A stretch of DNA of 49,087 bases. Source: a virus. Made by a program: the position numbers and the translations under genes. Below, piece after piece: positions 10,147-39,262 of the stretch. The notes beneath the pieces are model-generated. The model did not search any database. It saw only the letters and a list, made by a program, of their open reading frames with translations, and was not told the DNA's origin. The DNA lies in the IMG/VR virus record IMGVR_UViG_3300039149_000003, positions 1 to 49,087 of that record; one strand, given 5' to 3'. The first letter of the stretch is position 1, and every line of letters begins with the position of its first letter.

Positions 10147-10152
10147 AATCAT

Positions 10153-10299
10153 TTACTCCTTGAATATCGAAGTTTCCTCTACATCTTCATCATACATTTC
10201 GCACTTAAAAGTGTTTGGGTCTTCATCATCGTGCCGGTCTGAAACTTGACAAATTGCATCACGATAATTCATACAAGTATAACAACATTCAATAGCCAT
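10153..10299 (-). CDS. Cysteine-rich acidic miniprotein, 48 aa
   Basis: MAIECCYTCMNYRDAICQVS then an acidic segment (DRHDDEDPNTFKCEMYDED). Cysteines in C-C-x2-C order suggest a metal site. ATG 10299 has AAGGAGTAAATGATT upstream; the last codons (TTC AAG GAG) form the ribosome site of the next gene. Unknown function. Confidence 0.62.
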   Translation of the reverse strand: MAIECCYTCMNYRDAICQVSDRHDDEDPNTFKCEMYDEDVEETSIFKE

Positions 10300-10305
10300 A
10301 ATCAT

Positions 10306-12870: not shown

Positions 12871-12972
12871 GATTCCTTCTTTCCAAAAAAGGCAACTGGC
12901 GGGCTTCATGCCCTTTGTTATCTTCGATCCATCCCCTTACCAGTCACCTACCCATACTGCGTGCGGAGCACG

Positions 12973-16418: not shown

Positions 16419-16988
16419 TTGTTTCTCCTTTCTAAAATTGGTACAAGCAAATTCCCCAAACAATTCTTTTGCTTTTTTATCATAGGCTTTGGCTGCTTCA
16501 ATCTCAGAATCAAACCGGCCAATAGCTATGCTTTTTTGTTCAAATTGAATTTTTGTTTTCCACTTCTTATCTTTTTTAATCCATGATACCCCTTTGTATT
16601 TCGAGATACCTCTGATTGAATGTTGGTTATGTTGATTTTGTGAGTGAGTACATAATCTTAAATTAAACCTTCTATTATCAAGGCCATTTCCATCTCGATG
16701 GTCTGCTTGTTTGCCATCGTTTAGCTTTAATCCAAGAACTTCTCTGTGCATACGAATCATAATTTGGTGTGGGTGCTTACCAATATTGCGAACAGCATAA
16801 AAATTATTTCCATTTTTAAGAGCGTACCATTTCCATTGATTAATTCGTTTATAATCTTCGGCATCGACAATGGCGTGCTTGCCTTGAGTTAAAGGAATAA
16901 ACCGACCTAAGGCGTGGGAACCTGACGAAAGGTGAGAACACGCCTCAGGCGGTCTTTGGCTTGGTTGAATTAATAAGGTAGTTTTCAT
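16065..16988 (-). CDS. AP2/HNH homing endonuclease, in-frame fusion to a zinc-ribbon protein (307 aa)
   Basis: Residues about 30-110 form the N-terminal part of a phage homing nuclease (GRFIPLTQGKHAIVDAEDYK, then WKWYALKNGNNFYAVR). The HNH core is QADHRDGNGLDNRRFNLRLC followed by THSQNQHN, and an AP2 DNA-binding domain follows (ISKYKGVSWIKKDKKWKTKI, then IGRFDSEIEAAKAYDKKA). The nuclease ends NFRKEKQ and reads without a stop into the zinc-ribbon protein. The ATG at 16988 lies 3' of AAGGA, part of which is in a 14-bp stem. It is the first gene after the early promoter. Mobile selfish gene by family; activity untested. Confidence 0.85.
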   Translation of the reverse strand: MKTTLLIQPSQRPPEACSHLSSGSHALGRFIPLTQGKHAIVDAEDYKRINQWKWYALKNGNNFYAVRNIGKHPHQIMIRMHREVLGLKLNDGKQADHRDGNGLDNRRFNLRLCTHSQNQHNQHSIRGISKYKGVSWIKKDKKWKTKIQFEQKSIAIGRFDSEIEAAKAYDKKAKELFGEFACTNFRKEKQMDAYNCPNCEEQDTTQVTCPSCDKHFCEECEEDNFKFCHICDKKVCTNCYTEHEVNGVRTCDTCFDKLIVIKSNYDVLTLEINAVIEKITDVQLEDAAFMLGTFCGTLKGLKNRFGF

Positions 16989-17415: not shown

Positions 17416-19274
17416 TTGGATTTTTCCTTTAGCTGTTCTTTCATAGCATTAACAAGCTGCTTTTTACCTTTATGCGGACGGCCTTTAATAATCCCCTTAC
17501 TCCTGGGAAATTGAGTCTCTCTGTAAGTATTCGCTTTAATTCCGTTCAGAAGCTCTTTTCTCGTCCATGTATCCAGTGGCTTGCCATAAGTCTGAAGTCC
17601 AACGCCAAACATAACAAGTAGCGACATTGCCATTGCTGGGGCCACGTCCTGGTCAAGGAATGCTTCATAAATATCACGATATGCTAATGGTACGACTAAT
17701 CGAGGCCCGACATTTTTGAGATTAACTTCCTCACCAACTACATTCTCGCCTGCCAGAAAATCAACAACAGTACTGAGCATTGGTGAAAACTTAGTTCTCA
17801 GAAATCTGGCCCCAACATCAAAAGTGTCGCTACTACCAAAAGGAACGTCTTTACCTCGCAGCGGTTTAAGCTCGCCTTTGGAAGTCTTTGTTTTACCTAA
17901 TGCTATTCTGGATAAGACTACCGCCGTTTGAGATAGTCCGAATAATGGGTCAACTCTTGTCTTACCGAATCGTATTTTTCCGAAGTCAGCAGAACGCGGG
18001 TCCTCTTCGATATCGCCACCGACCATTTTGCCGAGAAGCATTACTGCGAAAATACCAACTAATGCTCTGGCATACTCACCGCCGATTATTTTCCGAGTGT
18101 TTTTTGTTCCCTGCCATAACGGTTGACCGAGTAAGAGTTGGAACCGGCTGACAACGTAACGAGGAGCGAAGAAAACAGTATTAAGGCCAACTGCCGCTCT
18201 CTCGAGCGCACCGAGATTGCCCCTGCCTGTATTGACATTGATATAATTACCTATAGCTTTGAGTTCATCTATATTAGCAATACCGTTCTTATCAACTGGC
18301 AAGGTTCGATTGAGAACATCAAAGGAGTTGGCCCTGAGAAGATTTAGAAACGTAATGCCCGCTCTCTGGAAATTCCTGATAATCGGAATATTCTCAATCC
18401 AATGTGACATATAAACTTCTTCGAGCTTTGTTAATTTTGCAGAGCCATCGACAGGGCTGATATGAATTCCTGCCTTAGCATACAAAGGAGCGTTCGGCCT
18501 GTTATTAAGGTCGGTATTAATTTTGTCGGCAGCCTGCTCGTTACCAAATGCCTTAAACATGCCTGGAATTGATTTGATAGCGACGCCCGGCCTTGATACC
18601 GCCGTCCATCCCCCTTGTCTGAGTACCAAACTAAATTCACCACCTGTCATTAAGGCTCGGAACATATTCCACGGCTCAGCTATTTTCTCCCAGATAGACT
18701 TCGGTTTCATCATCTGGATTTTGTTGCGGATTTGGTTCTGAAGCTTCTTCTTCTCAAAATCCAATCGTTCCAACTGTTTTGTCTCTGCCGGTTTAACTCT
18801 GGTCTTAGGTAGAATATCACCAGAGGCAATACGTTCTTCCAGAGTAGCAATACTTTTTTTAATACGTTCGGCCTGAGCGCCTTCAGAACGATTTAGCTGT
18901 TTCTTTAAGCCGTCTCGTATTTCTCTGAGATGCTCGATTGCGTCCGGAGCTTTTTTCTTTTTTCTGACTGATTTTGGGAATTCGCCGGTTTCAAGAAATT
19001 GCTCCAATTCAGATATTTTCTGCTTTAGCCCCTTTTCGGTTCGAGCTTCCTGGCGAATTGCCATGAGCTTCTTAGTAAGTTCGTCCGATTTAGCTGATTG
19101 GCCGGTAGTAGTCTCTACAATAGCATCAACCAAATCTTCCCGTTTTAATAATGGAAAATCTTTCTGAATACGAGAGAGAACATCGTCCAGGTTCTTAATA
19201 TTTGGATCGGACGAATGGATCATCGCCATTTCAGTTATGAGTTTCGATAATTCTGAGCAGTCAACCTTAGCCAT
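17412..19274 (-). CDS. Polyvalent-protein LPD38-like C-terminal unit, 620 aa
   Basis: The first 190 residues are helical coiled coil. The rest contains a block I recognise from the large polyvalent protein-associated domain 38: RALMTGGEFSLVLRQGGWTA, then GNYINVNTGRGNLGALERAA, FFAPRYVVSRFQLLLGQPLW, FGKIRFGKTRVDPLFGLSQT, and LSTVVDFLAGENVVGEEV. Two long hydrophobic helices (LVGIFAVMLLGKMVGG, AMAMSLLVMFGVGLQTYG) are part of it. Start at ATG 19274 overlaps the upstream 1285-aa stop (TAATG), suggesting one original protein split in two. Such proteins are thought to be cargo delivered with the DNA; not an obvious virion enzyme. Confidence 0.8.
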   Translation of the reverse strand: MAKVDCSELSKLITEMAMIHSSDPNIKNLDDVLSRIQKDFPLLKREDLVDAIVETTTGQSAKSDELTKKLMAIRQEARTEKGLKQKISELEQFLETGEFPKSVRKKKKAPDAIEHLREIRDGLKKQLNRSEGAQAERIKKSIATLEERIASGDILPKTRVKPAETKQLERLDFEKKKLQNQIRNKIQMMKPKSIWEKIAEPWNMFRALMTGGEFSLVLRQGGWTAVSRPGVAIKSIPGMFKAFGNEQAADKINTDLNNRPNAPLYAKAGIHISPVDGSAKLTKLEEVYMSHWIENIPIIRNFQRAGITFLNLLRANSFDVLNRTLPVDKNGIANIDELKAIGNYINVNTGRGNLGALERAAVGLNTVFFAPRYVVSRFQLLLGQPLWQGTKNTRKIIGGEYARALVGIFAVMLLGKMVGGDIEEDPRSADFGKIRFGKTRVDPLFGLSQTAVVLSRIALGKTKTSKGELKPLRGKDVPFGSSDTFDVGARFLRTKFSPMLSTVVDFLAGENVVGEEVNLKNVGPRLVVPLAYRDIYEAFLDQDVAPAMAMSLLVMFGVGLQTYGKPLDTWTRKELLNGIKANTYRETQFPRSKGIIKGRPHKGKKQLVNAMKEQLKEKSK

Positions 19275-22200
19275 TAGTAACATCCTTTTTCAAGTAAGGT
19301 GCTCATTCTGTTCTTTATCCCGTCAAGCCGAAGATTTTTCTGTTGTGCCGTCATTCTACCGAATTGCTTCAAGCCGCCTTTTCTAACAAATCGAGTTGCA
19401 TTAAGCTCATCTATTTCTCGCTGCATATCATCAATTTTCTCAGTAGCTTTGTCAAGTTTTTCAGTTAACTCCTTAAAATCAGCCGACTCTTTTGCCGACA
19501 ATTCCTTACCTTTAGCCGCTTTTGCTCTGGCCTTAACCGATATCAGGTCGAAGTTACGGTCGATAGTGAGCTTCTGAGATACCAACGCTCTGCCCTTCTC
19601 TGTACCGGATATATGCAATGCCCTTGTAATAGCGTTAAACTCCGACTCTATCCGGCCAATTTCAGCCGATTGTATCATAATATCAGCCTGGTCGGTTGTG
19701 TCCTTTATCTTCCGGATAGCTTTTCGATGCTCAACTTTTAGCTCAGTGGCCCTGATAACAAGGCCCGCCGTTTCTTCGTCATTCAAAGCTCTGGCCGATA
19801 CGTTTATCTCAGTAGCTAATCGCAAGGCTCTGTCCTGAATATTCTGGTCTTTGGCGTTCTGTAGTGACTTTTGCCATGACTTACGTTCTGTTGACGGCAT
19901 TGCCTCCAGGCCCAGAGCTTCTCTGTCATCAGCTAAGTCCGCTTGCCTGGCCGATGTTTCTTCCAGAAGCTCCTTTGTCGCGGTATCGACTTCCTTGGCA
20001 GTATTGGCTGTGGATATCGGCTGTGTTACTTTTTTCTCTTTAGTTACAGTTTGCTCAGCAACTTCTTTAGCCGTCTTACCTTGCTCAAACATACTTTGGA
20101 TAAGCGGCCACGCCGACTCTAAATGAGGCTCTACCCAATTACCCAAGCTCTCTACCATTTTCCTGGACCATGCCGCGAATGTCCGGATGCCGCTCTCGAA
20201 ATGATAAGCGCCTACAGTAAATAGGTCAGCCATGCCTTGCGGGTCCACGCCGATATTTAGCTTGTTGCGGTCGGTTAATCGTTTTTTAGCCTTTTCATAA
20301 GCATCTTTTGTGATTATCCTCTTTGTAGGCTTTGCTTTCTCCTTTGCTTTAGTCTCTACTGTAGGCTGAATATTTGCATATTTATATAAAAACTCTTTTT
20401 GCTCTGAATCAAGCCGGTTTTGTGATGCTTCAATTTGTGTTACAATATCTCGTTTGTTGCCACCCTTATCAATTAAGTCTAATGTGCGATTGAAAGCGTC
20501 CGTTCTTAGATTAAGAGGTATTTCCCCCTTCCCTTTCCCCCCTTCTTCTGTTATAGGTTTAGCAGATTCTTTGACAAGTGAATCGGGTTTAGCTTTTTCC
20601 CAAGCATCGCCTTGAATTAAACGTCTTAAAGTTGAACGAGAGAACCCTGCATAGTCAACACCTTCAGCATCAGTGAATTTTATGGAATTTTTTTCTATCG
20701 CCCTTATTGTTATAGGGTCGGCCATATTGGATTGGCCTTTTGTATTTATGACATCTCCGACCTTAAATTCTTCCTTTGCGGATATTCTTTTCTTTGCAGC
20801 TTTTTTGGAAACTTTAGAGGGTTTCAAGTCTGGATATTCTGCTAATACTTCGGGGGGGACGGGCTTGCCTTGCTCTAATGCTTTTCTTATATGTAATGAA
20901 TGGTTTTGTATCTGGTTTAAGTCTGGTGTAGGCGTAGTAAATTCTCGCCATATATCCATTTTCTTCACTTCTTCCCAAGCATCTTCCCTGTCCATACCCT
21001 GTTTTTCACGCTTTTTAACTTCTTTATTTACCTCTTTTTGTAAACGATTGCTTTCTTCTACGTCTCTATGAATTGCCCTATTTACATCCGACAACTTTAG
21101 CCCGCCTTTGTAGCCTATTTTGTCGGCTATTTCTCTTCTCGTCATTTCCCACGGCTGTTTCTCTGCGGCCTCTGGGGTGGGGGTGAGTTGCTGTGTCAAT
21201 TCTTTTAATTTCTTTTCTGAGTTTGCTATTGAACGCTCAACAGCCACCCGTTTATCTCCAGATATTTTGCCTTTTAATATTGTTTTTCCCTCATTTATTG
21301 AATCAATAAGGCGCATTTGTTCGGTAGTTAAATGTGGTTCTCTTGGAATAGGCTCTGTTGTTTCACTTGGGCCGAACCCTTCCGGTGTTACATCTTCAAT
21401 CGTAAAGCCTTTTTGTTTTTCAATGGCCTTTGCTCTATCGGCGATTATTTGTAGATGTGGAGGCAATTTCCCCTCTCCTGAGGCCTCTGGGGTAACTTCA
21501 TCGATAATCTGGTTTATCTTATCGACCTTTTGCTCATCGGTCATTTGCTTCCATTTGCTGTAACCAATGGCCTTTACGCGGTCGTAAATCTCCCCGCTAT
21601 TCTCGGAGGCCTTGACCCTGTTCTTGGCCTCTACAGCACCTTCGCCCCTAACAGACCTCAGAAAGCCGCTAACGTCCTGCTCGGTGGTCTCACTCCGTAC
21701 TGTTTCCTGTGCCGTCTGGCTCGCTGGCTGTGTTTCAGGGGCCTCCTGAGTCCTATCGGCCACAGGTTCCGGAGTTCGTGGCTCTGATGGCTTCTCAGGA
21801 GCTTTTTGCTCTTTTCCACCAGTTTCGGCTGGGCCAATTGTTCCAATAGCTACCTGCCCGGCCATAGGAGCGGCCAAAACAGTCAATTCAACGGCTATGT
21901 TCTTAGGTTTTAAGTCCTGTTTAACAGCAGCTTTGAGTCTATCAATTACATTCGCATCTTTGCCAGCTCCGAAGTCATCCACATCAGTCAATGCCCTGAG
22001 AAGGTTCCCCAGACGCTCCTCACCATACTCACCGATGATATTGGAGTAACCGCCAGCAGTTAGCATTTCTCTGGCAAAATCACCGGCTTTCCCGCCAGTG
22101 GCCGCCATCCAACCTTTTCGTAGGCTATCCACGAATTTCCGACCGAACTTTGTCTCATTCAGAACCTTTATTGGTATGCCGGTAAGGGCATCGCCAGCCG

Positions 22201-23131
22201 TCTCAGAAGCCGACTCAATCACGATATCACCCCACGCTTTAGCGAAAGATGTAGCCCAGCCTTCCTGGTCGGCGCCAAGGATCTGAGCCTGAACCTGCCT
22301 TTGTCCCGCTTTTTCAGCTATTCTGGGGGCTAATCCCAGAGTAGCCCTTGTTATGGCGCCACCGGTCCATCCCGCGGCTTTCAATGCTGTTTTGCCTGCC
22401 GAAGTTTTAGCCCAACTCTTGAGCAGCTTCTCACCGGCGTTCTTCGCAGCAGCGCTACCCAGATTGGCAAAGCCGCCAGTCATAGCGAATTCAGCCATCC
22501 AGGTCGGTAGGTTTAAGAGGCCCTTAGCTACTTGACCACCGAAAGTATGCCCTCGCTCCTGTTGTTCCTGTGTACGAACAAGTAAATCCTCAATAAGTCC
22601 AACATCAGCCTCTTTTGTAGTGAACCTTGCTGGCACAGAACCAATCGCTCCAGCTCTTATTTCTTCCGGACGAATTGGTTTTGTGTAATCATAGTCACTT
22701 CTGAGCCTGTTAGCAGCGTCAAGATACAATAATTGTTCAGCAGCTCCGACAACACCACCAACGCCAGGGACAAACTGAGCACCTTTAGCCGGTGTAGTGA
22801 CTTCCTCTTTTAATGATTCTTTGAAACCAATACCGGGCTTACCTGGTACTTTGGGAGTAGGTAAGCCTTGCGGGTCAGCTATCTCCGGTATGCCAACTCC
22901 AGGCGGCTCAGCTACAAACGGCGGGGGTAACGCGGCTACCTTGGTCTGTTTAACCGCATCCGTATCACCGGCCAGCTCAGCATCGATAAGTGTTCCGAGC
23001 TTTTTCGGGACTGGAGGCCCTACGAAATCACTCTGGGATGAAGCCAACTCCCTATCGACCAAACTGCCAAGAGATGAAGCCTGTTTCTTCTGACCGAGTT
23101 CCTCGTCTAACAAGTCACCTAATACGCCCAT
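19274..23131 (-). CDS. Large polyvalent/internal virion protein, 1285 aa
   Basis: The N-terminus has three similar units (LGDLLDEELG, LGSLVDRELA, LGTLIDAELA). A hydrophobic amphipathic region follows (FVPGVGGVVGAAEQLLYLDA, then GGQVAKGLLNLPTWMAEFAM). A long low-complexity linker (PEKPSEPRTPEPVADRTQEA) and charged helical segments fill the middle, with a helical C-terminus. No catalytic motif is seen. Together with the downstream 620-aa LPD38 unit it forms a split polyvalent protein of about 1900 aa. In podoviruses, very large proteins at this position are ejected into the host with the genome; that is the likely role. Confidence 0.75.
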   Translation of the reverse strand: MGVLGDLLDEELGQKKQASSLGSLVDRELASSQSDFVGPPVPKKLGTLIDAELAGDTDAVKQTKVAALPPPFVAEPPGVGIPEIADPQGLPTPKVPGKPGIGFKESLKEEVTTPAKGAQFVPGVGGVVGAAEQLLYLDAANRLRSDYDYTKPIRPEEIRAGAIGSVPARFTTKEADVGLIEDLLVRTQEQQERGHTFGGQVAKGLLNLPTWMAEFAMTGGFANLGSAAAKNAGEKLLKSWAKTSAGKTALKAAGWTGGAITRATLGLAPRIAEKAGQRQVQAQILGADQEGWATSFAKAWGDIVIESASETAGDALTGIPIKVLNETKFGRKFVDSLRKGWMAATGGKAGDFAREMLTAGGYSNIIGEYGEERLGNLLRALTDVDDFGAGKDANVIDRLKAAVKQDLKPKNIAVELTVLAAPMAGQVAIGTIGPAETGGKEQKAPEKPSEPRTPEPVADRTQEAPETQPASQTAQETVRSETTEQDVSGFLRSVRGEGAVEAKNRVKASENSGEIYDRVKAIGYSKWKQMTDEQKVDKINQIIDEVTPEASGEGKLPPHLQIIADRAKAIEKQKGFTIEDVTPEGFGPSETTEPIPREPHLTTEQMRLIDSINEGKTILKGKISGDKRVAVERSIANSEKKLKELTQQLTPTPEAAEKQPWEMTRREIADKIGYKGGLKLSDVNRAIHRDVEESNRLQKEVNKEVKKREKQGMDREDAWEEVKKMDIWREFTTPTPDLNQIQNHSLHIRKALEQGKPVPPEVLAEYPDLKPSKVSKKAAKKRISAKEEFKVGDVINTKGQSNMADPITIRAIEKNSIKFTDAEGVDYAGFSRSTLRRLIQGDAWEKAKPDSLVKESAKPITEEGGKGKGEIPLNLRTDAFNRTLDLIDKGGNKRDIVTQIEASQNRLDSEQKEFLYKYANIQPTVETKAKEKAKPTKRIITKDAYEKAKKRLTDRNKLNIGVDPQGMADLFTVGAYHFESGIRTFAAWSRKMVESLGNWVEPHLESAWPLIQSMFEQGKTAKEVAEQTVTKEKKVTQPISTANTAKEVDTATKELLEETSARQADLADDREALGLEAMPSTERKSWQKSLQNAKDQNIQDRALRLATEINVSARALNDEETAGLVIRATELKVEHRKAIRKIKDTTDQADIMIQSAEIGRIESEFNAITRALHISGTEKGRALVSQKLTIDRNFDLISVKARAKAAKGKELSAKESADFKELTEKLDKATEKIDDMQREIDELNATRFVRKGGLKQFGRMTAQQKNLRLDGIKNRMSTLLEKGCY

Positions 23132-25105: not shown

Positions 25106-25581
25106 TGCCGTCTGGAGTTTATAAAAGAGTCAAAGATGCTACTAAATATATTACTAAGAAATGTCCTGCATGTGGACATAATTTTAATTCTTATATTCAC
25201 GCAAGCCGTAAATATTGTTCTAAGCCATGTCAAAATAACGTACCTATAAGCAAGGAGCATCGCCGAAAGTTGTCTGAATCGCACAAAGGGAAAAGAGGGG
25301 TCAAAGCTTCGAACTGGAAAGGTGGAAGGCGAACACATAAAGGCTATATTCTCATTTACTGTCCTGATCATCCTAATACCATAATGCGATTTTATGTTAA
25401 AGAACATCGGCTTGTTATGGAAAAACATCTTGGTCGTTATTTGAAAAAAGAAGAAGTTGTACATCACATAAACCAAAACAAAGCAGACAATCGCATAGAA
25501 AATCTGCAATTGTTTGCAAATCACTGTGAACATATGAAATTTCTCAATCATCACAAAAAATCTCAGACTTCGCTTATATAA
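25106..25581 (+). CDS. Free-standing HNH homing endonuclease, plus strand, 158 aa
   Basis: The only plus-strand gene. Starts MPSGVYKRVKDATKYITKKC behind AAGGAGATAAAA. An N-terminal zinc site (CPACGHNF...YCSKPCQNN) is followed by an NUMOD-like segment (ISKEHRRKLSESHKGKRGVK, then ASNWKGGRR) and the HNH core (FYVKEHRLVMEKHLGRYLKK, then VVHHINQNKADNRIENLQLF) with a C-terminal HCEHMKF. It was inserted between the 296-aa gene and the acetyltransferase, overlapping the 3' end of the latter by 19 bases. A longer reading from 24979 is not supported by a ribosome site. Typical selfish insertion. Confidence 0.9.
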
Positions 25582-26027
25582 CTCGATTCGAAATGTTTCA
25601 TATTCATTTTCTGATAAAGAGTACACACTTTATCATGTAAATCACTGGCCAGATTGGAAGCGTTCATAATGAGATGTGAACATCCCTGTCCTTTAGCCCA
25701 TTTCCTGGCCTCTATCAGTAATCGCAAGCCGCCAGCTCCACGAGACTCCGGACGAACGTAATAATTATGTTCGTTTGCTATGAGCTGGTCGGATATAGGG
25801 CTTTTGAAAGTAGAAAGGCCCATGTAGCCGACAACTTCATCTTTGTCATTCTGGAGTATAAGTAAATCATTGCCATCTTGATAAACCATATTATTAAGCA
25901 TATCTTTCAAGTGTTGCTCTACATCAGCCTTTAATCCAAACGAACTGGCATTAGATTCTGCAAGCCACTTTTCTGCTAATGGCCTCAAAAGTTCCGTATG
26001 ATTGTTTTTACAAATAAGTACTTTCAT
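25563..26027 (-). CDS. GNAT N-acetyltransferase, 154 aa
   Basis: Acetyl-CoA-binding motif is YYVRPESRGAGGLRLLIEAR, followed by GCSHLIMNASN and the C-terminal LYQKMNMKHFESSYI typical of GNAT enzymes. Its substrate is unknown: candidates are a virion protein, a glycan amino group, or a host factor. It starts at ATG 26027 overlapping the tail-fibre stop, and its 3' end overlaps the convergent HNH gene. Many tailed phages encode similar acetyltransferases in the structural block. Confidence 0.85.
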   Translation of the reverse strand: MKVLICKNNHTELLRPLAEKWLAESNASSFGLKADVEQHLKDMLNNMVYQDGNDLLILQNDKDEVVGYMGLSTFKSPISDQLIANEHNYYVRPESRGAGGLRLLIEARKWAKGQGCSHLIMNASNLASDLHDKVCTLYQKMNMKHFESSYISEV

Positions 26028-27364
26028 TAGTCCACCTTCTCATAAAGCGTCTCAATATCCTGTTTCAACTGCCGTAAATGCTTTTCTACATACTTCGCTA
26101 TCTCAACATTCCACGCCTGAATATTACCTCGGAACTGAGGAAACTGCTCTATTTCACCCGATATAATATTCTGGAGAAACGTTAAAACCTCAGAGGTCGG
26201 GGCATCTGTCATGGCAATCGTATCAAAGACAATAGCTTCAAGTGTTCCTAATGGTATTGCGGCATTGTCCACAAGATTGATACTATCAAAGACATCTGCT
26301 TTTAATGGTGTAATGCGGGCATCGGCGTTATCAGCCAGACCGATACTGTCATAGACAATAGCTTCAAGTAAACTAATAATTTTCTGAGCTGTAACATCTT
26401 CGGTCAAACCAATAGAGTCAAAGACCTCTGCTTTATAAAAACTGAGCCGGGACGTGACACTTTCTGCCAGGCCGATAGTATCAAAAACAGATGCTTTGAG
26501 AGGACTGATTCTGGCCGTGACGTCCTCAGTCAGACCGATAGCATCGTTAGGAGATGCTTTGAAAGGACTGATTCTGGCCGTGACGTCCTCAGTCAGACCG
26601 ATAGCATCGTTAGGAGATGCTTGATACGGGGTGACCCCGGCCGCTGCCCCGCTCTGCAAGAGAACTCTATCGCCCTTTTCGAACATGCGGAACGGCTCTC
26701 GATAGAGTAAGGCTATCTCTGATGCGGATAAGCCTCGGTCGTAAGCATAAAACCATTTCATGTCCCCTATAGCAGCAAATGGAGCGCCGTTATTGGCTTG
26801 ATTCCCTATTTTAGGTGTGGTGGATTCAGAGGCCGTACCCGCAAGAGTGTCGCTGTCTTGAAGGTTACCATTTACATATAGGCGTATATCAGAACCCACT
26901 CTTGTCAAAGCAACTACATAATCGCCAACAGTGCTTGCAGTAGTATCTTCAAGTTGTATCTCAGAGCCTGTATCCACAACAGCATGGAACCCGGCTCCCG
27001 GCGCAATATTCCAATAAAAATCAATTCCATTACCTGACCCCGCCCTCGTATCAAACAGTGTACCGAAAGAAGCGACACTGTTAATCCTTATCCCAGCTAT
27101 TAGTGTAAAATCCCCGCTTAATTTATCTCCAAATCCGACCGGTAATAGTGCATGAGAAGTCCCCGTAAAGTTAATTCCTTCAGCTATCCACGTCGGCGAA
27201 TTTGTGAGTACAGCACTAACGCCATTCCCACTCAAGTCATTGACCATATTGCCTGAGCCTTCGTTCATCAGCCAGCAGCCGAAGAGACCATCCTTTGACC
27301 AATGTCTGTCTGGCCTTAACGGTATTCCAGTAACAGGTTTTTGTGTGTTATGGCGAGTGTACAT
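26027..27364 (-). CDS. LamG-domain tail fibre or lectin with tandem 21-aa repeats, 445 aa
   Basis: Residues about 25-215 form a LamG/ConA-like jelly roll (WSKDGLFGCWLMNEGSGNMV, then FTLIAGIRINSVASFGTLFD and IRLYVNGNLQDSDTL), which binds carbohydrate in many adhesins. From about residue 240 there are seven repeats of about 21 aa with consensus KA-VFDSIGLTEDVTARISPL, and the last about 60 residues are helical (NIQAWNVEIAKYVEKHLRQL). Two of the repeats are identical over 59 bases of DNA. Likely receptor binding; downstream of the 197-aa structural protein. Confidence 0.82.
   Translation of the reverse strand: MYTRHNTQKPVTGIPLRPDRHWSKDGLFGCWLMNEGSGNMVNDLSGNGVSAVLTNSPTWIAEGINFTGTSHALLPVGFGDKLSGDFTLIAGIRINSVASFGTLFDTRAGSGNGIDFYWNIAPGAGFHAVVDTGSEIQLEDTTASTVGDYVVALTRVGSDIRLYVNGNLQDSDTLAGTASESTTPKIGNQANNGAPFAAIGDMKWFYAYDRGLSASEIALLYREPFRMFEKGDRVLLQSGAAAGVTPYQASPNDAIGLTEDVTARISPFKASPNDAIGLTEDVTARISPLKASVFDTIGLAESVTSRLSFYKAEVFDSIGLTEDVTAQKIISLLEAIVYDSIGLADNADARITPLKADVFDSINLVDNAAIPLGTLEAIVFDTIAMTDAPTSEVLTFLQNIISGEIEQFPQFRGNIQAWNVEIAKYVEKHLRQLKQDIETLYEKVD
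26501..26622. repeat. 63-bp tandem repeat inside the fibre gene
   Basis: Bases 26501-26559 and 26564-26622 are identical over 59 positions with a 63-bp period, encoding the first two of seven protein repeats. More diverged copies continue towards 26200. Recent in-frame duplication is the simplest explanation; copy number may vary between isolates. Confidence 0.88.
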
Positions 27365-27957
27365 TATTGTATTTCATAAACCATTGGCATAAAGACAACA
27401 TGAGATTCAACTTCATCGGCTTCAAACGCATCACCAGATTCATTTTTGACGATTAACTGACCGTAACGGGTAGGCGGTGAGAATGTACCTACAAATCCAG
27501 TTTGCACGCCACCGTCTGCATGAACAGGCAGGTTGCCGATAAATATACAGAGCTTCACAAACTCGGCCAAAGTAATTGAGTTTAACGCCCCATCAGGACA
27601 GGCGGCGTCACCACCTGAGTTTCCCGCGACATTTCCATTGGCGGCTGTGCCGGATGTGGACGGTGCCCAGTAAAATTCAACAGCATCACCATCCGTAGGA
27701 GTTTCACCCGTAAAGTCTATTGAGGCCATAACATTATAGTACGGCGCTCTGGTAGCTCCTAAATCGGCTTTGGCACTTTGCACCGCGGAACCATCGGCCA
27801 CACCAGATAAACCACATTCAACATCAACAGTATCCGTCCCAATGTCATCAGTTAAGTTTGTTGCATCATCCGCAGGGTCTAAGCTCGCATTTGCACCAAA
27901 GACAATAGGATTCAGACTGCTACCTGCTGCATCTTGAATTAAAATTTCGTTTGCCAT
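27364..27957 (-). CDS. Structural protein, 197 aa
   Basis: MANEILIQDAAGSSLNPIVF, then a Gly/Ser/Asp-rich body (SGTAANGNVAGNSGGDAACP), with LAEFVKLCIFIGNLPVHA and a C-terminal VVFMPMVYEIQ. This resembles virion surface or tail proteins seen between fibre and connector genes. It starts at ATG 27957. No catalytic motif. A good candidate for a fibre base or a decoration protein. Confidence 0.65.
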   Translation of the reverse strand: MANEILIQDAAGSSLNPIVFGANASLDPADDATNLTDDIGTDTVDVECGLSGVADGSAVQSAKADLGATRAPYYNVMASIDFTGETPTDGDAVEFYWAPSTSGTAANGNVAGNSGGDAACPDGALNSITLAEFVKLCIFIGNLPVHADGGVQTGFVGTFSPPTRYGQLIVKNESGDAFEADEVESHVVFMPMVYEIQ

Positions 27958-27967
27958 TATTATCTCC

Positions 27968-28684
27968 TTACGGATATTGTTTGCCTGTGCTCAAATCTAT
28001 ATGCTTACAGAATATATTTGTATCGCACAAAAACGGATACTTCTTTTTGCCAATCTTCGGCCAACCTGCTCTATGTAATACATTCTCTCGGATAACCCTG
28101 TGACACCAATTCAAGTCACTCGTACCCTGAGATGAGCTGTATGATTGAGTATCTGGGTGAAAATGGACCTGGGCGGGCGTCTCGAATACTTTTTTAGCCT
28201 TCAAGCCGCCACAAACCGTGTACTCCTCGCTCTCGTTATACATGAGCTTTATGACGGATGAATGAATAAGCAAAAAGCCGGTCGGAACACCGTCAGCCCA
28301 GACCTTATCGCCAACTTTGAAGTTCTTATAACAGCTATTACCCAGACCGCGGTAAAGGATAGGCTCCGAGTATGTTCCCTTTGTGAAATACAGTCCGCTA
28401 ACTACTGGAATTTTCGGATCGGAAATATACCTGTTCAATTTGAGAAATGCATCGAGCGGCGGAATAACATCATCTTCCCAGAGCAAGAACCATTCGAAGT
28501 TCTTATTAACCACCTCTGCACATCCGAGGTTCTGGGCGTCAGCTACCAGGTAGTGCATAGGGACGTAGTTACCTATCCCGAGAGTTGCTGAACTGGCTGA
28601 CCAGTTACACGGAGTAGCCTGGCCATAACGATGGATTGACCATTCAATACGAACAACGCCGAGAGTGGGCGTGACAATAAGCAT
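27968..28684 (-). CDS. GT-A-type glycosyltransferase, 238 aa
   Basis: Start chosen at ATG 28684, where MLIVTPTLGVVRIEW opens the nucleotide-binding fold behind GAGGAACAGG; a longer reading from 28744 adds a basic tail. A metal-binding acidic motif is FEWFLLWEDDVIPPLDAF (EDD), followed by PVVSGLYFTKGTYSEPILYR and ADGVPTGFLLI, the acceptor-side loop of GT-A enzymes. Other active-site candidates include HFHPDTQSY. Donor and acceptor cannot be deduced. It partners the methyltransferase upstream, and possibly modifies a virion glycan or host surface sugar. Confidence 0.82.
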   Translation of the reverse strand: MLIVTPTLGVVRIEWSIHRYGQATPCNWSASSATLGIGNYVPMHYLVADAQNLGCAEVVNKNFEWFLLWEDDVIPPLDAFLKLNRYISDPKIPVVSGLYFTKGTYSEPILYRGLGNSCYKNFKVGDKVWADGVPTGFLLIHSSVIKLMYNESEEYTVCGGLKAKKVFETPAQVHFHPDTQSYSSSQGTSDLNWCHRVIRENVLHRAGWPKIGKKKYPFLCDTNIFCKHIDLSTGKQYP

Positions 28685-28706
28685 CCTGTTCCTCGGATTG
28701 CCTTTC

Positions 28707-29321
28707 TTACCGCTTTTGATTATTGTTATCTGGTTTTCCTGCATTCGCTTGCCGGTCCTTGTCTTTGGTTATAACTTTTACTACGTCATCAGGCATTGCT
28801 TCGTTGTTTATACTTATAATTGATTTACCTTCACTGTCTTTTCGAGGCTCTAAAATGACCTCAATAGTACCTGTCACATTTACATCGTTACGAATAATCT
28901 TCCAAGGCAGCGGCTTCTTATATGAACATGCCTGCCAGAAGTGAAAATCAGGATCGAAGAACTGGAACGTTCCCACGTTCGGGCACATATAATGAGCCGG
29001 ATGAGCAGACTCCAGATAACTGCCTGCGTGCGGGCAGCAGATGAAAAGCTGGCCATCGTACCTGCAAATTCGCCATAGTTCGTCCATTACCTCAAACCGA
29101 TATTTAGGCTCGATGTGCTCCCAGATATGACTCATTAAAATCTGAGAACAGATATTATCAGGGACCGGCCAGGGGAACGTCTGAATGTCGTGGACAATAT
29201 CAATGTTTGGATGGTTCATTATGTCTAAACCAATAAAACCTTTTTGCTTAAAAAGGCCCGCCCCTATATCGAGCTTTATGCCCGCGGCTTTCTGGAATAG
29301 TTCTTGATTATATTTTGCCAT
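28707..29321 (-). CDS. Class I SAM-dependent methyltransferase, 204 aa
   Basis: SAM-binding motif I is IKLDIGAGLFKQKGFIGLDI, with a later DIQTFPWPVPDN and a FICCPHAGSYLES segment near motif IV. The overall pattern (short, with HIWEHIEP and ELWRICRYDGQLFICCPH) is a phage-type methyltransferase often next to glycosyltransferases, so a small-molecule or sugar target is more likely than DNA. C-terminal tail is charged (KDKDRQANAGKPDNNN). Translation overlap depends on which start is used for the glycosyltransferase. Confidence 0.82.
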   Translation of the reverse strand: MAKYNQELFQKAAGIKLDIGAGLFKQKGFIGLDIMNHPNIDIVHDIQTFPWPVPDNICSQILMSHIWEHIEPKYRFEVMDELWRICRYDGQLFICCPHAGSYLESAHPAHYMCPNVGTFQFFDPDFHFWQACSYKKPLPWKIIRNDVNVTGTIEVILEPRKDSEGKSIISINNEAMPDDVVKVITKDKDRQANAGKPDNNNQKR

Positions 29322-32507: not shown

Positions 32508-33176
32508 TCAAAATTCAATATAAGCTTCTTCGTTTTGCATTTGATTATAGTCTTGATACTCACCAAGCCATTTCTCGAACTTTAGCATTACTTTTAGTGC
32601 CTTTGTTTCCAGTCTTGGCGCCGACAAAGCCATTTCATCGTAACATCTGGCCTGGGCGAAGAATCGCAAACCTTCATCTGAGTTAGATAATACACTCGTA
32701 CCAGCTCCATCCGTTAAAGCCGTTGCCCATTTTGTATAATCCATTCGAAGATACAGGCCATTATAATCAGAACTCACCGGGCGATTGAAATAAAGCGTAT
32801 TGCCGAATCGCGTATATTGCCACGGCTCAGTAGCCGACTGTTGAGCAATAATAATATTCTGCCTGAAAAACTCATCTTTAGGAATGAACTCAAGGCCCCC
32901 TTTTCTCGTCTCAGAACCGTTAAGAATCCATATCTTATCAATATGAGCTGGATTGAGGGAGCTGATATCAACTGTTGTATCGTTAGTAGCTATCGTGAAG
33001 GTGGTCGTATCGATAGTCACAAGGTCTATCAGGCCCGGTGATCTGCGAACTATCTGCAACTGAGCTTCATTAAGCTGAGTCAAAACAAAGGCCCTGCTAA
33101 TCAGAGCGGTATCGTTTGGCCTACCAGCTCTGGCCTTAACTTCTGTTATTAAATCGGAAGTCGCACTATTCGCCAT
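32508..33176 (-). CDS. Head-tail connector/adaptor, 222 aa
   Basis: Starts MANSATSDLITEVKARAGRP with LTQLNEAQLQIVRRSPGLID, and has the VDISSLNPAHIDKIWIL and LYFNRPVSSDYNGLYLRMDY segments characteristic of gp4/gp6-like adaptor proteins that join the portal to the tail. Acidic C-terminus (EKWLGEYQDYNQMQNEEAYI). Location between the portal side and gp10-like protein agrees. Overlaps the radical SAM gene by 11 bases. Confidence 0.78.
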   Translation of the reverse strand: MANSATSDLITEVKARAGRPNDTALISRAFVLTQLNEAQLQIVRRSPGLIDLVTIDTTTFTIATNDTTVDISSLNPAHIDKIWILNGSETRKGGLEFIPKDEFFRQNIIIAQQSATEPWQYTRFGNTLYFNRPVSSDYNGLYLRMDYTKWATALTDGAGTSVLSNSDEGLRFFAQARCYDEMALSAPRLETKALKVMLKFEKWLGEYQDYNQMQNEEAYIEF

Positions 33177-34038
33177 TTTTTTGCTCCATAGTATCGAGAC
33201 TTTTAGCGATATCCTGGTAGACTAATTTTCCATTCGCGTGCCAGCTTTTACCTTCACAAATTTGACAGGGATACTCATCTTCCGGCAAGAGTAGTCCCTG
33301 ATACAAACTGAATAACTTACCCGTAGTTGCATCTATTTTGCCAAGCATTGTCCCTTCGTGGGGCCCGTAATCGCTACGAAGATTGCAGCATGGAGTCACT
33401 ATACCATTGTAATTGATACCGATATACTGGACTGGCTCGCCACAAGTGAGCATTCGTTTCTGAGGTTTACGAACTGAGACATCGCAACGATTATGACCAA
33501 CTTTGTGCCAGTCCTTTGCGTAGGCATGGATAATCATGCCGTTAATTCTGGCATAGAACTGGCCCGGAATTGGCTCTATGAATTTTATGCCTGGTAATTT
33601 GTTTGCAAGTTTAATGTACTTCTCACATATAGCTTCTCTGGTAAACTCCTCATCCTTGTCAAAATAGAGTTGAGCCTTAATAACGTCCATGCCTGCTTGA
33701 GCAGTTTGTTCGACTAATTCAGTATTCAAGTAGTCCGTGTTCGTATTCGTCATAAGGAAAGCGTTAGGAAGATTTTTCCTAACATACTTAACACGCCCAA
33801 CAAACTCCATTCCCTGACTAAACGGCTCGCAATTACCTGAGAACGTGATAATGTTATCGTAGTCAATAAAAGCTAAATCATTTAGCACTTGGCCGAGAAC
33901 AAACTCATCAAGCCACTGAACAGGGCCCTGTCGATCAATGAACTGGTTTGGGCAAAACCAGCATTGACGGTTACAATAAGAATGCATCTCCAGTTCAACC
34001 ATCCTTATGTTAGCTTTGAATCTCTGGGCATCTGTCAT
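33166..34038 (-). CDS. Radical SAM protein with SPASM-like C-terminus, 290 aa
   Basis: CNRQCWFC at residues 22-29 gives the CxxxCxxC iron-sulfur motif. A GGEP-like ITFSGNCEPFSQG follows, and the TIM-barrel pattern continues to about residue 200. The C-terminal part contains RMLTCGEPVQYIG, VTPCCNLRSDYG and YPCQICEGKSW, cysteines that could hold auxiliary clusters as in SPASM enzymes. Such enzymes modify peptides or sugars. It lies in the tail operon between the connector and the GT-B-like gene, so a virion protein or glycan is the likely substrate. No precursor peptide was found nearby. Good confidence on family, none on substrate. Confidence 0.88.
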   Translation of the reverse strand: MTDAQRFKANIRMVELEMHSYCNRQCWFCPNQFIDRQGPVQWLDEFVLGQVLNDLAFIDYDNIITFSGNCEPFSQGMEFVGRVKYVRKNLPNAFLMTNTNTDYLNTELVEQTAQAGMDVIKAQLYFDKDEEFTREAICEKYIKLANKLPGIKFIEPIPGQFYARINGMIIHAYAKDWHKVGHNRCDVSVRKPQKRMLTCGEPVQYIGINYNGIVTPCCNLRSDYGPHEGTMLGKIDATTGKLFSLYQGLLLPEDEYPCQICEGKSWHANGKLVYQDIAKSLDTMEQKNGE

Positions 34039-34047: not shown

Positions 34048-35358
34048 TTATGCTAAAACACTTTTGTCTGGCTTGCGAATTTGATTTTTCGCAATACCAC
34101 TACCCGTCCGTTCAACCGCCATTCCGCAAAACGGACAATCTGCTATTGTAACTTTGTGTTCTGTCCACCAACGATTTTTGCATGCTGGACATAGCCATTT
34201 AGGTAATTTATTTTTTCTCTTTTTTGGCTCAGCAATCATAACGTCATCTGTTAAGTAAAGAGCTTCAATCGGCCATGTGTCCGGGATGTTGGTTTGAATA
34301 TCTTGCTGGTCGATATTCTGATGTATTACATGAGCTGCTCTCTGGCAAGCCGTACCGTCAATACTGCCATAAAGATGGTTCTTCAACTCGTAGAAAATAC
34401 TCCAATTGACGTTTGTACTCTCAACGTCAATTGTTCGGAACGCATCCTCGATAAGTTTGCCATCAGACGACTGAGGAGAGAGATTAGCCAATATTTTGTC
34501 TGGATTAATATTTCTGAAATTGAACGCCGGAATTTTAAGACAATGTGCTTCCATCGCCATTGTTGAACCGCAATGTATGAGCATGTCAGTATCTTTTAAT
34601 GCTTCGTGAGCTGAATATGTCTGAGGATAAACTTTAAGAATATCGCCAAGTTTTTCGACATACTCAGTAACTCGCTCACCCGGCCGAACTTTAAGTGAGA
34701 AGTCCCATGAATCTTTGAACGTCTCATGCCATTCCCTGATTTTTTCAATCCAAACCGCCCGGGCCTTTGTATGCTTCTCAGCCTGTTTCTTATGAAACTC
34801 TGCATCTTTCGGCAATCCACATTCACAGTAATCAACTAAACTATCAGCCGCCGAAAAGCCGGTAGCAAAAAGCACCATTTTCTTTCTATTCCGACTTCGC
34901 TTCATATCTGGCTGAAAATAGATATCGAACGCAAAGGCTCCGCAAGCCACTATCTTATCCGCGGTAACGTGGCCTTTCTCGGCGACAATTTCACCGAACT
35001 CCTTACCCCAGACAAGTTCAAGGTCAATGTAAGGATCATAATCCCAATTTCCGAGCATTATCGTCTGTTCGGAATATGTTAACGAGTCGAACACGGTCCT
35101 CGAAGCGCCTGCCTCACCACGCCGGATAATGACCTTGCATCCCCACTCTTTGCACTTCTTCAAAAAGTCAATTTTATATTGACCGCCTGGGAAGGGATGA
35201 ATAACAACATCCGGCTTCATGTACGGGACCGATTGCCGGCCAACGTCCATGTATGGATGAACATGGACCTCGTGACCGAACTTTCTTAGGTGTTCAGCAA
35301 TGAGATTATCTACAATCTCATCCCTCTGGCCTGTCAGATATAGCATCAGAATTTTCAT
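34048..35358 (-). CDS. GT-B-like surface-carbohydrate protein with C-terminal zinc ribbon, 436 aa
   Basis: Start at ATG 35358 after AAGGAACCAAAAC. MKILMLYLTGQRDEIVDNLI and VHPYMDVGRQSVPYMKPDVV look like the N-terminal Rossmann half of GT-B or surface-carbohydrate synthesis enzymes; the second half has TDMLIHCGSTMAMEAHCLKI, the G-S/T-xxxE donor-site pattern seen in such proteins. A zinc ribbon is appended (KWLCPACKNRWWTEHKV, DCPFCGMAVERTGSG). It overlaps the methyltransferase upstream by 41 bases. Activity not proven; it may be a CDP/UDP-sugar transferase. Confidence 0.72.
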   Translation of the reverse strand: MKILMLYLTGQRDEIVDNLIAEHLRKFGHEVHVHPYMDVGRQSVPYMKPDVVIHPFPGGQYKIDFLKKCKEWGCKVIIRRGEAGASRTVFDSLTYSEQTIMLGNWDYDPYIDLELVWGKEFGEIVAEKGHVTADKIVACGAFAFDIYFQPDMKRSRNRKKMVLFATGFSAADSLVDYCECGLPKDAEFHKKQAEKHTKARAVWIEKIREWHETFKDSWDFSLKVRPGERVTEYVEKLGDILKVYPQTYSAHEALKDTDMLIHCGSTMAMEAHCLKIPAFNFRNINPDKILANLSPQSSDGKLIEDAFRTIDVESTNVNWSIFYELKNHLYGSIDGTACQRAAHVIHQNIDQQDIQTNIPDTWPIEALYLTDDVMIAEPKKRKNKLPKWLCPACKNRWWTEHKVTIADCPFCGMAVERTGSGIAKNQIRKPDKSVLA

Positions 35359-35974
35359 GTTTTGGTTCCTTCTTTCCATAAAATAGCGGTGCGAATGTTT
35401 GTTTTTCGTTTTGAGGGTACATGTTATACAATCGAACAATCTCCCAACTGAAATTTGGGAGGTAAATAGTCAATTGATTGAGCCACCAACCGACACTCTT
35501 GACACATAAATGCAACGGCGGTTCACCGGAGCAAGCTACTTTCAGGATGATGTTCTTAGCAATATGGTCCATCGTTTTAAGTGCAATCGGTACCTCTTTT
35601 TCAGATATATGCTCTAAAACATCAAAAGATATACAGTAATCGTACTCATTCTTTTCAAGTGCTAATTCGCACACGTTTTGAGTAATATCTGCTATTGCAA
35701 ACTTATACCCTTCACGCTCATAAGGACCATCCGCAATGTCAATACCCGTCACATCAAACGTCAAACAAGATAGCAAGTGACACAACTTACCGTTACCACA
35801 ACCAATCTCGATAACCGAGATTTTCGGCCTCTTTGACCACGGCTCATAAACTGTACCATCCTCGTACCTGAGCAAATGAAGCCAGTCACAAAGGACAGCC
35901 ATGCCCTGGTTATTGTTACGATACCCTGGATGAGAATAGTGCATCGTTTTATAAATACTTTCTTTGGTTGTCAT
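35318..35974 (-). CDS. Class I SAM-dependent methyltransferase, 218 aa
   Basis: Start at ATG 35974 behind AAGAAGGAAAAACT. Motif I is ISVIEIGCGNGKLCHLLSCL; motif II FDVTGIDIADGPYE; post-motif YDYCISFDVLEHISEKEVPI. These are typical of ubiquinone/small-molecule or sugar methyltransferases, not DNA methylases. It overlaps the GT-B-like gene and forms a set with it. The gene is the first after the tandem-hairpin region, so its translation may respond to that RNA. Confidence 0.85.
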   Translation of the reverse strand: MTTKESIYKTMHYSHPGYRNNNQGMAVLCDWLHLLRYEDGTVYEPWSKRPKISVIEIGCGNGKLCHLLSCLTFDVTGIDIADGPYEREGYKFAIADITQNVCELALEKNEYDYCISFDVLEHISEKEVPIALKTMDHIAKNIILKVACSGEPPLHLCVKSVGWWLNQLTIYLPNFSWEIVRLYNMYPQNEKQTFAPLFYGKKEPKHENSDAISDRPEG

Positions 35975-36061
35975 AGTTTTTCCTTCTTTCATGAAAATGT
36001 ATTGTTATTCCTGTGTGCTATGAATGTCATTACAAGCATAACCAAACTTCTCTAACCTTCA

Positions 36062-36161: not shown

Positions 36162-36440
36162 TTAAAAACCTATTGCAACGTACTGAATTGTATCAGCACT
36201 TGTCACTATAGGCCCATAACGAGTAAAGGTTATTGTGCCTGTACCGGCCGTCAATTTTCCCGTTGTAGCAAAAGCTACCAAGCCGTCAGCTTGCATAACA
36301 CCAAAACCCGCTATCACTCTACTGAACTTCGTAGCTACGGTAAAATCCTGGCCGGAAACACCGCCAGCCACAACTTTGCCCGTCTCTATTCGCACCGGGG
36401 GTATGTGCGAACGCTTCTGTATTGTCGAATCCCAAGCCAT
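36162..36440 (-). CDS. Minor head protein, 92 aa
   Basis: Start at ATG 36440 behind AAAGGAGGTTTTGGC. MAWDSTIQKRSHIPPVRIET and a beta-rich rest (TGKLTAGTGTITFTRYGPIV), ending IQYVAIGF. No enzyme motif. It is the last gene before the hairpin region and follows the 183-aa protein; a capsid accessory or decoration protein is likely. Confidence 0.68.
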   Translation of the reverse strand: MAWDSTIQKRSHIPPVRIETGKVVAGGVSGQDFTVATKFSRVIAGFGVMQADGLVAFATTGKLTAGTGTITFTRYGPIVTSADTIQYVAIGF

Positions 36441-36486
36441 GCCAAAACCTCCTTTCAAAAAGGTTAAAGGTTATTGTTTTGACATT

Positions 36487-37038
36487 TTAGGCCGTGGTAT
36501 CAGCAGCAAGCGCGAAGGCAGATATCATTGTCAGCTCTGAGCCTGTTATGACCTCGAACGTGTTCAATGAACTGGCAGCTACAAGCTTCATACCAGCACC
36601 AGCAGCAACGGAACCATCGGAAGGATAGATACCGTCAAGGCCGGAAACCAGGTCCACCGGACAAACACCACCACACCAGAACCATCCGTAATATGCGTCC
36701 ACGGTCGTACCGAGGGCCACACATATCGGACCTGTACTCATGCTCTCATCAGTGGTATTTGAAACGTTACCCCATGCACCAGCAGTTGCTACACTGGCAG
36801 TACACAGACCGCAAAGACCCTTAACAGCGGCAACCGCGGCAGTACCTTTCTGGAACTGCAGGTAAATCAGAATCGACCAACCGTTATTCGTAGTCGAATA
36901 AATCGCTCGTTTCTCGCCTACATTAAAAGCGGCAGCGGCTGTATAAGCTGTCCAGTCATCGGGGTTTGCCCCATTCGTGGGGACACCGGGGAAGTTATCT
37001 ATGAGATAAAACTTCCCATCATCAATTCCTACTGTCAT
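36487..37038 (-). CDS. Head decoration-like protein, 183 aa
   Basis: MTVGIDDGKFYLIDNFPGVP, then YTAAAAFNVGEKRAIYSTTN and beta-rich, Ala/Gly-rich sequence with ASVATAGAWGNVSNTTDES. No catalytic residues. Directly after the capsid gene, so a head accessory or decoration role is reasonable; the family is not recognised. Confidence 0.68.
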   Translation of the reverse strand: MTVGIDDGKFYLIDNFPGVPTNGANPDDWTAYTAAAAFNVGEKRAIYSTTNNGWSILIYLQFQKGTAAVAAVKGLCGLCTASVATAGAWGNVSNTTDESMSTGPICVALGTTVDAYYGWFWCGGVCPVDLVSGLDGIYPSDGSVAAGAGMKLVAASSLNTFEVITGSELTMISAFALAADTTA

Positions 37039-37105: not shown

Positions 37106-38191
37106 TTACGGAGTAACGTTTTCGTACATAAGCTGACGGTTGGGATGGAAACAACAAAGGTTTCCAGCCCATTTGATACGGGCCAAATTAAAGTCTGAAC
37201 CGTTCGCAATTTGAGACTGGTCGAAGAAACCCGACATTTTGAAATTACGCTTCGGATGAATGAAGAACTCCCAGTCTCTGAGATTCAGGCAATAAAGCCT
37301 TCTCGCCAGGGAACCAGCAGCATCATTCGTAAGACCTTCAGCGGAATTGTACCGATTCGACAGATACGGGTCCTTGAGAACCCTGCGGCCGTCAATAACC
37401 ATCTCATGGAAACCCTGGGTAGTCTTACCACCCTGAGAGTTCAAACGGTCCGGCATGATCTTGTAAGGTGTTCCTCTTGCCTCAGCTTCCTCGATTAAGG
37501 ATAACCACAGAGCACCACCAACGATGGTAATCAGGTCCACGTTATCCGTTTCAAGATCTTCCAGGGGTTCAAGTTTCTCCCTCAACCATGCAATTGATAG
37601 GACTTGTGCAGTTGTACTCTGAGTTGTAGTCGTCAAAGTATTATCTGCCGGCTGCCAGTAATTGGCAATATCAGAGGCCGTTGTCCGCGTTTTCTGGCCA
37701 TAAGTATGATCGACCGTCAAAGCATTATTAAGGCCCTGCATATACCTGTTACTATCAGTAGCCGCCGAGGCATGACCGGTTCTACGGTACATCAGAATAC
37801 GGAGGTACATCCGAAGGCCCTCATTAGCCTTGCGTACACGGAACTTAGCTAAGTTGTGCAACTTTGTACCATCCGCAGTCTGACTTGCGTTTTCCAGTTC
37901 CTCATCCTCATCTATCTGGACGGGGAACTGAATTTTCTTGCGAATAAACGTTATCCGCTCAGTTGAGTTCACGACGCCATGTGTTAAGGTGTCATTCTGG
38001 GTGTAAGACTGAGCAAGTGACTCGTGGGTTCCGGTATCAACTTCACGGTAATACTGTTTACCACCTCTGAACTGCAAAGTCTTACGCTCCAGCATTAACG
38101 CCAGAACAGGGTTCTTTTTGATATACTCAACTTCCCAGGTGGCATCGTGCATGTCCCTGGTAAGGTTGTCTAAATCTTGATGAAACGACAT
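37106..38191 (-). CDS. Major capsid protein, 361 aa
   Basis: MSFHQDLDNLTRDMHDATWE, then NPVLALMLERKTLQFRGGKQ, TFIRKKIQFPVQIDEDEE and NVDLITIVGGALWLSLIEEA, with a C-terminal FNLARIKWAGNLCCFHPN. Length, position after the scaffold and this pattern agree with the HK97-like capsid type of podovirus-like metagenomic phages. The stop lies inside a small GTTAC/GTAAC hairpin. It is preceded by a strong site AGGAGTAAC. High confidence by gene order. Confidence 0.85.
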   Translation of the reverse strand: MSFHQDLDNLTRDMHDATWEVEYIKKNPVLALMLERKTLQFRGGKQYYREVDTGTHESLAQSYTQNDTLTHGVVNSTERITFIRKKIQFPVQIDEDEELENASQTADGTKLHNLAKFRVRKANEGLRMYLRILMYRRTGHASAATDSNRYMQGLNNALTVDHTYGQKTRTTASDIANYWQPADNTLTTTTQSTTAQVLSIAWLREKLEPLEDLETDNVDLITIVGGALWLSLIEEAEARGTPYKIMPDRLNSQGGKTTQGFHEMVIDGRRVLKDPYLSNRYNSAEGLTNDAAGSLARRLYCLNLRDWEFFIHPKRNFKMSGFFDQSQIANGSDFNLARIKWAGNLCCFHPNRQLMYENVTP

Positions 38192-39133: not shown

Positions 39134-39176
39134 AAAAAAAAACAGAGGCATGTTAAGTTTCCTCAACATGCCTCTG
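39134..39176 (-). terminator. Intrinsic terminator between portal and scaffold
   Basis: A perfect 12-bp stem (CAGAGGCATGTT 39143-39154, AACATGCCTCTG 39165-39176) with a 10-base loop, followed on the minus strand by nine T (39142-39134). It lies in the gap 39017-39262 between portal stop and scaffold start, a textbook rho-independent terminator. I see no obvious strong promoter after it in the rest of the 246-base gap, so some read-through or antitermination should feed the capsid genes. Confidence 0.92.
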
Positions 39177-39262
39177 CAATAGGCGTGTGATTTGCAGCAC
39201 TATCAGTGGAAGCAACGCCACCTAATGCCTGGGTTTTTGGACTGGATTAAACTAAAGTTTTA

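Follow-up and report, generated by a model that had tools for sequence, protein, structure and literature searches.

The capsid-adaptor interval

The stretch of DNA analysed here, which we call the window, comprises 49,087 bases of the IMG/VR virus record IMGVR_UViG_3300039149_000003. Its sole radical SAM match is an open reading frame (ORF) on the minus strand at 33166-34038, which starts with ATG and encodes 290 residues, predicted to form a BtrN-like Twitch enzyme. Directly downstream of this gene lies that of an SU10-type head-tail adaptor (32508-33176; PF24175, E 1.4e-10), and upstream, all on the minus strand like the adaptor, are genes for a glycosyltransferase-like protein (GT) of GT-B fold (34048-35358; the ORF opens at 35439, with the likely ATG at 35358), a class I SAM-dependent methyltransferase (MT) of 224 residues (35318-35992; Pfam Methyltransf_23, E 9.5e-10), a small conserved protein, p8, which forms the upstream flank of the cassette site (36162-36458), a further conserved protein, p7 (36487-37038), and the major capsid protein (MCP; 37106-38191; phrog_9953 major head protein, E 1.3e-7). 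The last three have the same place in related phages. An earlier note, made from the sequence of this stretch, had put the radical SAM gene inside a tail operon; it sits instead among the head-neck genes of the late block, with the gene for the major capsid protein on one side and that for the head-tail adaptor on the other.

A gap of 9 bp separates the GT stop from the radical SAM start, and the adaptor gene begins 11 bp inside the end of the radical SAM gene. Because the genes are so tightly packed, the cassette genes would be expected to be co-transcribed with the adaptor gene. Around the cassette, sites that resemble promoters were fewer than shuffled sequences would give (8 versus 14), and we claim no separate promoter for it. 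A strong terminator-like hairpin of 16 pairs followed by eight T (39142-39177, minus strand) separates the portal gene from the gene that precedes the MCP.

The neighbouring GT resembles the TIGR04396, TagF/TarL and capsule GT-B enzymes in its fold and in family matches at E ~1e-21, the NCBIfam scores being E 3e-21 for the BFO_1060 glycosyltransferase and E 5e-21 for the surface carbohydrate protein TIGR04396; it differs from them in falling below both NCBIfam cut-offs and in carrying an extra, zinc-ribbon-like C-terminal tail. Its AlphaFold2 model (pLDDT 82) matches UDP-GlcNAc 2-epimerases, TarL, TagF and capsule polymerases with Z of 17-20. The C-terminal ribbon (CxxC...CxxC; window 34048-34200, minus strand) has cysteines C390, C393, C408 and C411 that are invariant in 8 sequences, a feature unusual for this GT family.

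A predicted BtrN-like Twitch enzyme

The Pfam Radical_SAM model matches the ORF at 33166-34038 with E 3e-5, which is under its curated cut-off, so the annotation rests on relatives, on the BtrN profile and on the predicted fold; PHROGs holds no family for this protein, and Pfam and NCBIfam alone are insufficient to name its family. When the PDB was searched with the single sequence, the only significant match was BtrN (4m7s, 4m7t; E 3e-8), the 2-deoxy-scyllo-inosamine dehydrogenase of butirosin biosynthesis. A profile built from a 41-sequence alignment of the family, most members of which are 26-38% identical to the window protein, raised this match to E 2e-43, with the next entry at 3e-4, and the match covers two stretches, the radical SAM core and the Twitch domain. 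The AlphaFold2 model computed from the same alignment (pLDDT 87.6, pTM 0.89) has a partial TIM-barrel radical SAM core, and its top structural matches are radical SAM enzymes: Foldseek ranked BtrN first (E 5e-12), and VIA-align superposed the model on BtrN 4m7t over 228 residues with Z 22.4 and an rmsd of 3.0, the best non-BtrN entry reaching Z 14.0. SpeY (PDB 7wzv, 7x0b) is likewise a Twitch radical SAM dehydrogenase and was matched by Foldseek at E ~1e-5, but its Z of 12.7 is no better than the superfamily background.

The cysteines first pointed out in the earlier note are all present: CNRQCWFC (C22, C26 and C29, the SAM-cluster ligands), CGEP (C199), PCC (C217 and C218) and CQIC (C258 and C261). 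Each of them, together with R184 and G212, is invariant in all 41 aligned sequences, a conservation far beyond chance. In the profile alignment the auxiliary set C199, C217, C258 and C261 falls on BtrN C169, C187, C232 and C235, and R184 falls on BtrN R152, the likely active-site base of that enzyme. The numbering of the 4m7t chain follows our own count of a 20-residue tag offset, fixed by the SAM-cluster cysteines C16, C20 and C23 of BtrN (PMC9012708). The arrangement C199-x12-G212-x4-C217 ... C258-x2-C261 agrees with the Twitch auxiliary motif, C-x9-15-G-x4-C ... CxxC (PMC6231123), in which four cysteines hold one cluster, and it lines up with the BtrN ligands. The seven-cysteine SPASM motif (CX2CX5CX3C gap C) was not found, there being zero cysteines from C261 to the C-terminus at 290. 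A radical SAM enzyme with auxiliary-cluster cysteines thus stands, whereas the label SPASM-type gives way to Twitch; neither of the observations that would have spoken against the assignment, loss of the cluster cysteines in relatives or a different fold, occurred.

BtrN catalyses the two-electron oxidation of 2-deoxy-scyllo-inosamine and carries a four-cysteine auxiliary cluster (PMC9012708, PMC6231123), which is a proposed, unproven electron acceptor (PMC9012708). The two proteins share the radical SAM core and Twitch domain, the three SAM-cluster and four auxiliary cysteines, the R152 equivalent and the CNRxCW(Y/F)CPN, EP and NR motifs, but they are only ~19% identical in the structural alignment, BtrN has F in place of the family-invariant C218, C70 and C185 belong to the subgroup of the window enzyme, and an antibiotic-biosynthesis context stands against a phage head-neck cassette. 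On the evidence of sequence profiles and the model, assignment of the window enzyme to the BtrN-like Twitch enzymes, and with it the class of chemistry, is well supported.

The cassette in related phages and the wider family

Viral contigs scanned with the radical SAM protein, the MCP or the GT as single sequences gave no match, nor did 50,697 phage records searched by tblastn with the radical SAM protein, the MCP and the portal protein; the phage is therefore of a type without a close named relative among those records, and its relatives were reached only by alignment-based scans. Comparison of the site by tblastn of the window proteins on these related phages, combined with ORF maps, gave eight distinct phages that span the interval from GT to adaptor (the window, L020/L019, L021, L067, L072, L074, L075 with its near copy L076, and L077). 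Their gene order is fixed: MCP, p7, p8, [MT], [B12-type radical SAM], GT, [Twitch radical SAM], adaptor, where brackets mark genes that may be missing, and the MCPs of the relatives are 51-67% identical to that of the window. The GT is present in all eight and the MT in seven, with no match in L077. The Twitch enzyme occurs in three (the window, L020 and L021), as does a B12-type radical SAM enzyme (L021, L072 and L074), which is also found in L071, a sequence cut inside the GT. L021 thus carries both types, and L067, L075 and L077 carry neither. The MT and GT thus form a conserved core, to which the radical SAM enzymes are optional tailoring additions. In L072, two antisense ORFs with CxxC motifs that resemble HNH homing endonucleases (10041-10556 and 12426-13046, both minus strand) flank the methyltransferase and B12-type radical SAM genes of the cassette, which hints that the site is mobile or recombines.

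Members of the radical SAM family were found at 47 viral and 12 bacterial loci, in addition to plasmid matches. Among 96 genes next to the more remote viral members, Pfam recognised GT61 most often (13), followed by NAD epimerases (6), DUF6065 (5), GT1 (4) and 2OG oxygenases (4), along with sulfotransferases and GT2. As a control, 94 ORFs lying farther off in those viral islands yielded one GT61, eight GT1 and five GT2, with 2OG-oxygenase also present. Because the distal ORFs are themselves rich in GT1 and GT2, enrichment by proximity is strong for GT61 alone (13 versus 1), and the islands are glycan-rich overall; given this control, we use only GT61 adjacency and synteny at the structural-gene site as arguments. 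The bacterial relatives lie in polysaccharide loci, where their neighbours are methyltransferases, GTs, ABC transporters and epimerases. In a tree of the family the three cassette enzymes are united (SH-aLRT 99) on a long branch, and their deeper placement is unstable because of long branches, so we name no donor.

Several loci of the wider family have features of their own. In L023, a 1062-residue fusion protein (4820-8008) joins a B12-type radical SAM part, with 54% identity to the L021 protein, to a Capsule_synth domain; its gene lies directly upstream of a Twitch radical SAM gene. On L003 and L004, two plasmids of one Edwardsiella tarda strain, the radical SAM relatives (9947-10900) adjoin acyltransferase, sialidase-family and patatin genes, and a truncated relative lies on a third plasmid, L005. 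In L060 (7025-8825), a radical SAM gene with a Pfam SPASM match overlaps an adjacent one, a member of the BtrN-like family, by a few codons.

Proposed reaction and destination of the product

We consider it probable, at roughly 60%, that the enzyme, by analogy with BtrN, converts a hydroxyl group on a sugar or cyclitol into a ketone and thereby carries out a tailoring step of a small glycan pathway encoded by the phage. In such a reaction, the [4Fe-4S] cluster held by C22, C26 and C29 would cleave SAM, the 5'-deoxyadenosyl radical would take a hydrogen from the carbinol carbon of the sugar, and R184 would aid deprotonation of the hydroxyl; the resulting ketyl radical would hand an electron to the auxiliary [4Fe-4S] cluster on C199, C217, C258 and C261, leaving the ketone. 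The adjoining GT-B enzyme would transfer the sugar (or sugar-phosphate) unit, and the methyltransferase would cap or decorate it. A point against this pathway is that the 49 kb record has no recognised gene for nucleotide-sugar biosynthesis, so that the host, or genes outside those recognised, would have to supply the sugar. The reaction and the substrate are what we infer, and likewise the virion destination of the glycan. The earlier note had proposed either a virion protein or a glycan as substrate; the glycan is favoured, and direct modification of a virion protein is not, on the basis that BtrN acts on an aminocyclitol and that the neighbours are a GT-B enzyme and a methyltransferase.

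As to where the glycan goes, we favour the virion over the host surface and give it about an even chance of ending up there, since the cassette keeps its place between capsid and adaptor genes in phages with MCPs 51-67% identical to that of the window, although its position in the operon is a weak argument for a virion target. One could instead envision modification of the host surface late in infection, of O-antigen, capsule or a teichoic-acid-like polymer, for example to block rival phages or the adsorption of progeny to debris. The bacterial relatives do lie in surface polysaccharide loci, the GT matches the surface carbohydrate protein TIGR04396 and, by fold, TagF, TarL and capsule enzymes, and the authors of a pelagimyophage study favour O-chain modification for the GTs there, in a region with variable radical SAM cassettes (PMC7029224). 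Against this stand the fixity of the site inside the capsid-adaptor block over the same range of MCP divergence and the lack of a recognised flippase or export gene next to the cassette, and we regard a host-surface target as possible but rather unlikely. A broader proposal, which we put forward only tentatively, is that phages of this lineage decorate their own virions with a methylated sugar that has been oxidised or epimerised, and exchange alternative radical SAM enzymes, BtrN-like Twitch or B12-type, at a glycosylation locus of fixed position beside the capsid genes to change the chemistry of the glycan.

Within sugar oxidation and its near relatives, the subgroup residues of the cassette enzymes may bear on the outcome. 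The three cassette enzymes have G68, C70, T101, L124, F126 and C185 where the other relatives mostly have R, N, G, Q, L and G or T, respectively; C185 lies beside the conserved arginine R184, and C70 beside the conserved EP motif, in all three independent cassette sequences. These are likely pocket positions, and the substrate, or even the outcome, may therefore differ from that of BtrN. At the level of sequence, the changes suggest a substrate different from that of the other relatives and leave open a thiol hydrogen donor, that is, epimerisation. An enzyme of the same class could then be a redox-neutral, NeoN-like sugar epimerase, in which a cysteine thiol returns the hydrogen from the other face. 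Candidate donors would be C70 and C185, which are nearly absent from the other relatives, and C218, which adjoins the ligand C217 and is invariant in the family (41 of 41) yet replaced by F in BtrN. However, the subgroup cysteines are known from only three independent sequences, C218 may be structural because PCC is frequent in the radical SAM superfamily, and the dehydrogenase match is much closer than any epimerase in the fold list, where no sugar epimerase ranked near BtrN, a list that cannot exclude one. We see epimerisation as rather improbable beside oxidation to a ketone.

Most described SPASM/Twitch enzymes modify peptides, and the enzyme has weak NCBIfam matches, confined to the core, to peptide and protein maturases; both would fit a direct maturase, RiPP-like or acting on a virion protein. 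That a precursor peptide is missing, as first remarked in the earlier note, was borne out by gene spacing, by the search of the p8-MT gap and by the relatives: the gap of 9 bp to the GT and the 11-bp overlap with the adaptor leave no room for a precursor beside the window gene, no same-strand ORF of at least 20 residues lies wholly inside the p8-MT gap, and no conserved neighbouring precursor peptide was found in the relatives. The tight spacing thus argues that this is not a peptide-maturation locus. The kinship to peptide-maturing SPASM enzymes that had been supposed does not hold either, since BtrN, the closest fold and the nearest characterised relative, acts on an aminocyclitol rather than a peptide, and the neighbours in phages and bacteria alike are glycan enzymes; we hold peptide or protein maturation to be very unlikely. 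A role in hypermodification of DNA or nucleotides (glycosylated bases), or as a viperin-like nucleotide enzyme, is the least probable of all, for although phages use glycosyltransferases on DNA and viperin appears in the fold list (Z ~13, as expected from the shared barrel), the window genes scanned included no recognised gene for a hydroxymethylase or for base hypermodification, BtrN reaches Z 22.4 with the Twitch domain included, and the cassette sits with capsid genes rather than replication genes.

The enzyme class is known already, and radical SAM genes of phages have been reported before, 12 of them in one T4-like marine genome (PMC5332604), while radical SAM cassettes vary in a GT-rich host-recognition region of pelagimyophages (PMC7029224). 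The window cassette shares with those genomes the presence of phage radical SAM genes but belongs to another phage type and occupies a fixed MCP-adaptor site, whereas the relevant passages of those sources give the genes without subfamily or mechanism (PMC7029224, PMC5332604). BtrN together with phage was not found in the open-access papers searched, and as far as these go, neither the BtrN-type assignment nor the fixed head-neck site nor the exchange of radical SAM types at that site seems to have been reported. Radical SAM genes in phages usually go down as auxiliary genes without explanation; the one in the window falls into a defined subfamily and has a testable reaction and a small, defined pathway attached to it, and close relatives with none, one, another or both radical SAM enzymes at the site offer a natural series in which function is directly testable. 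Should the glycan be on the virion, this would be radical-chemistry tailoring of phage glycosylation, no case of which was found in the open-access papers searched.

Elsewhere in the window, a second group of modification-type genes lies in the tail region (25563-29321, minus strand). It consists of a methyltransferase-like gene (28707-29321), a gene for a 258-residue protein with a WEDDV motif that resembles GT-A glycosyltransferases and has no Pfam match (27968-28744), one for a LamG-domain protein (26027-27364) and one for a GNAT acetyltransferase (25563-26027). Also on the minus strand are a gene for a protein of 1285 residues that matches DarB-like antirestriction proteins (19274-23131; PHROG E 9.5e-17) and lies near the DNA ejection protein, one for a D12-class adenine DNA methyltransferase (3896-4750; PF02086, E 1.2e-21) and one for a protein with HNH and AP2 domains (16065-16988), which is probably a homing endonuclease.
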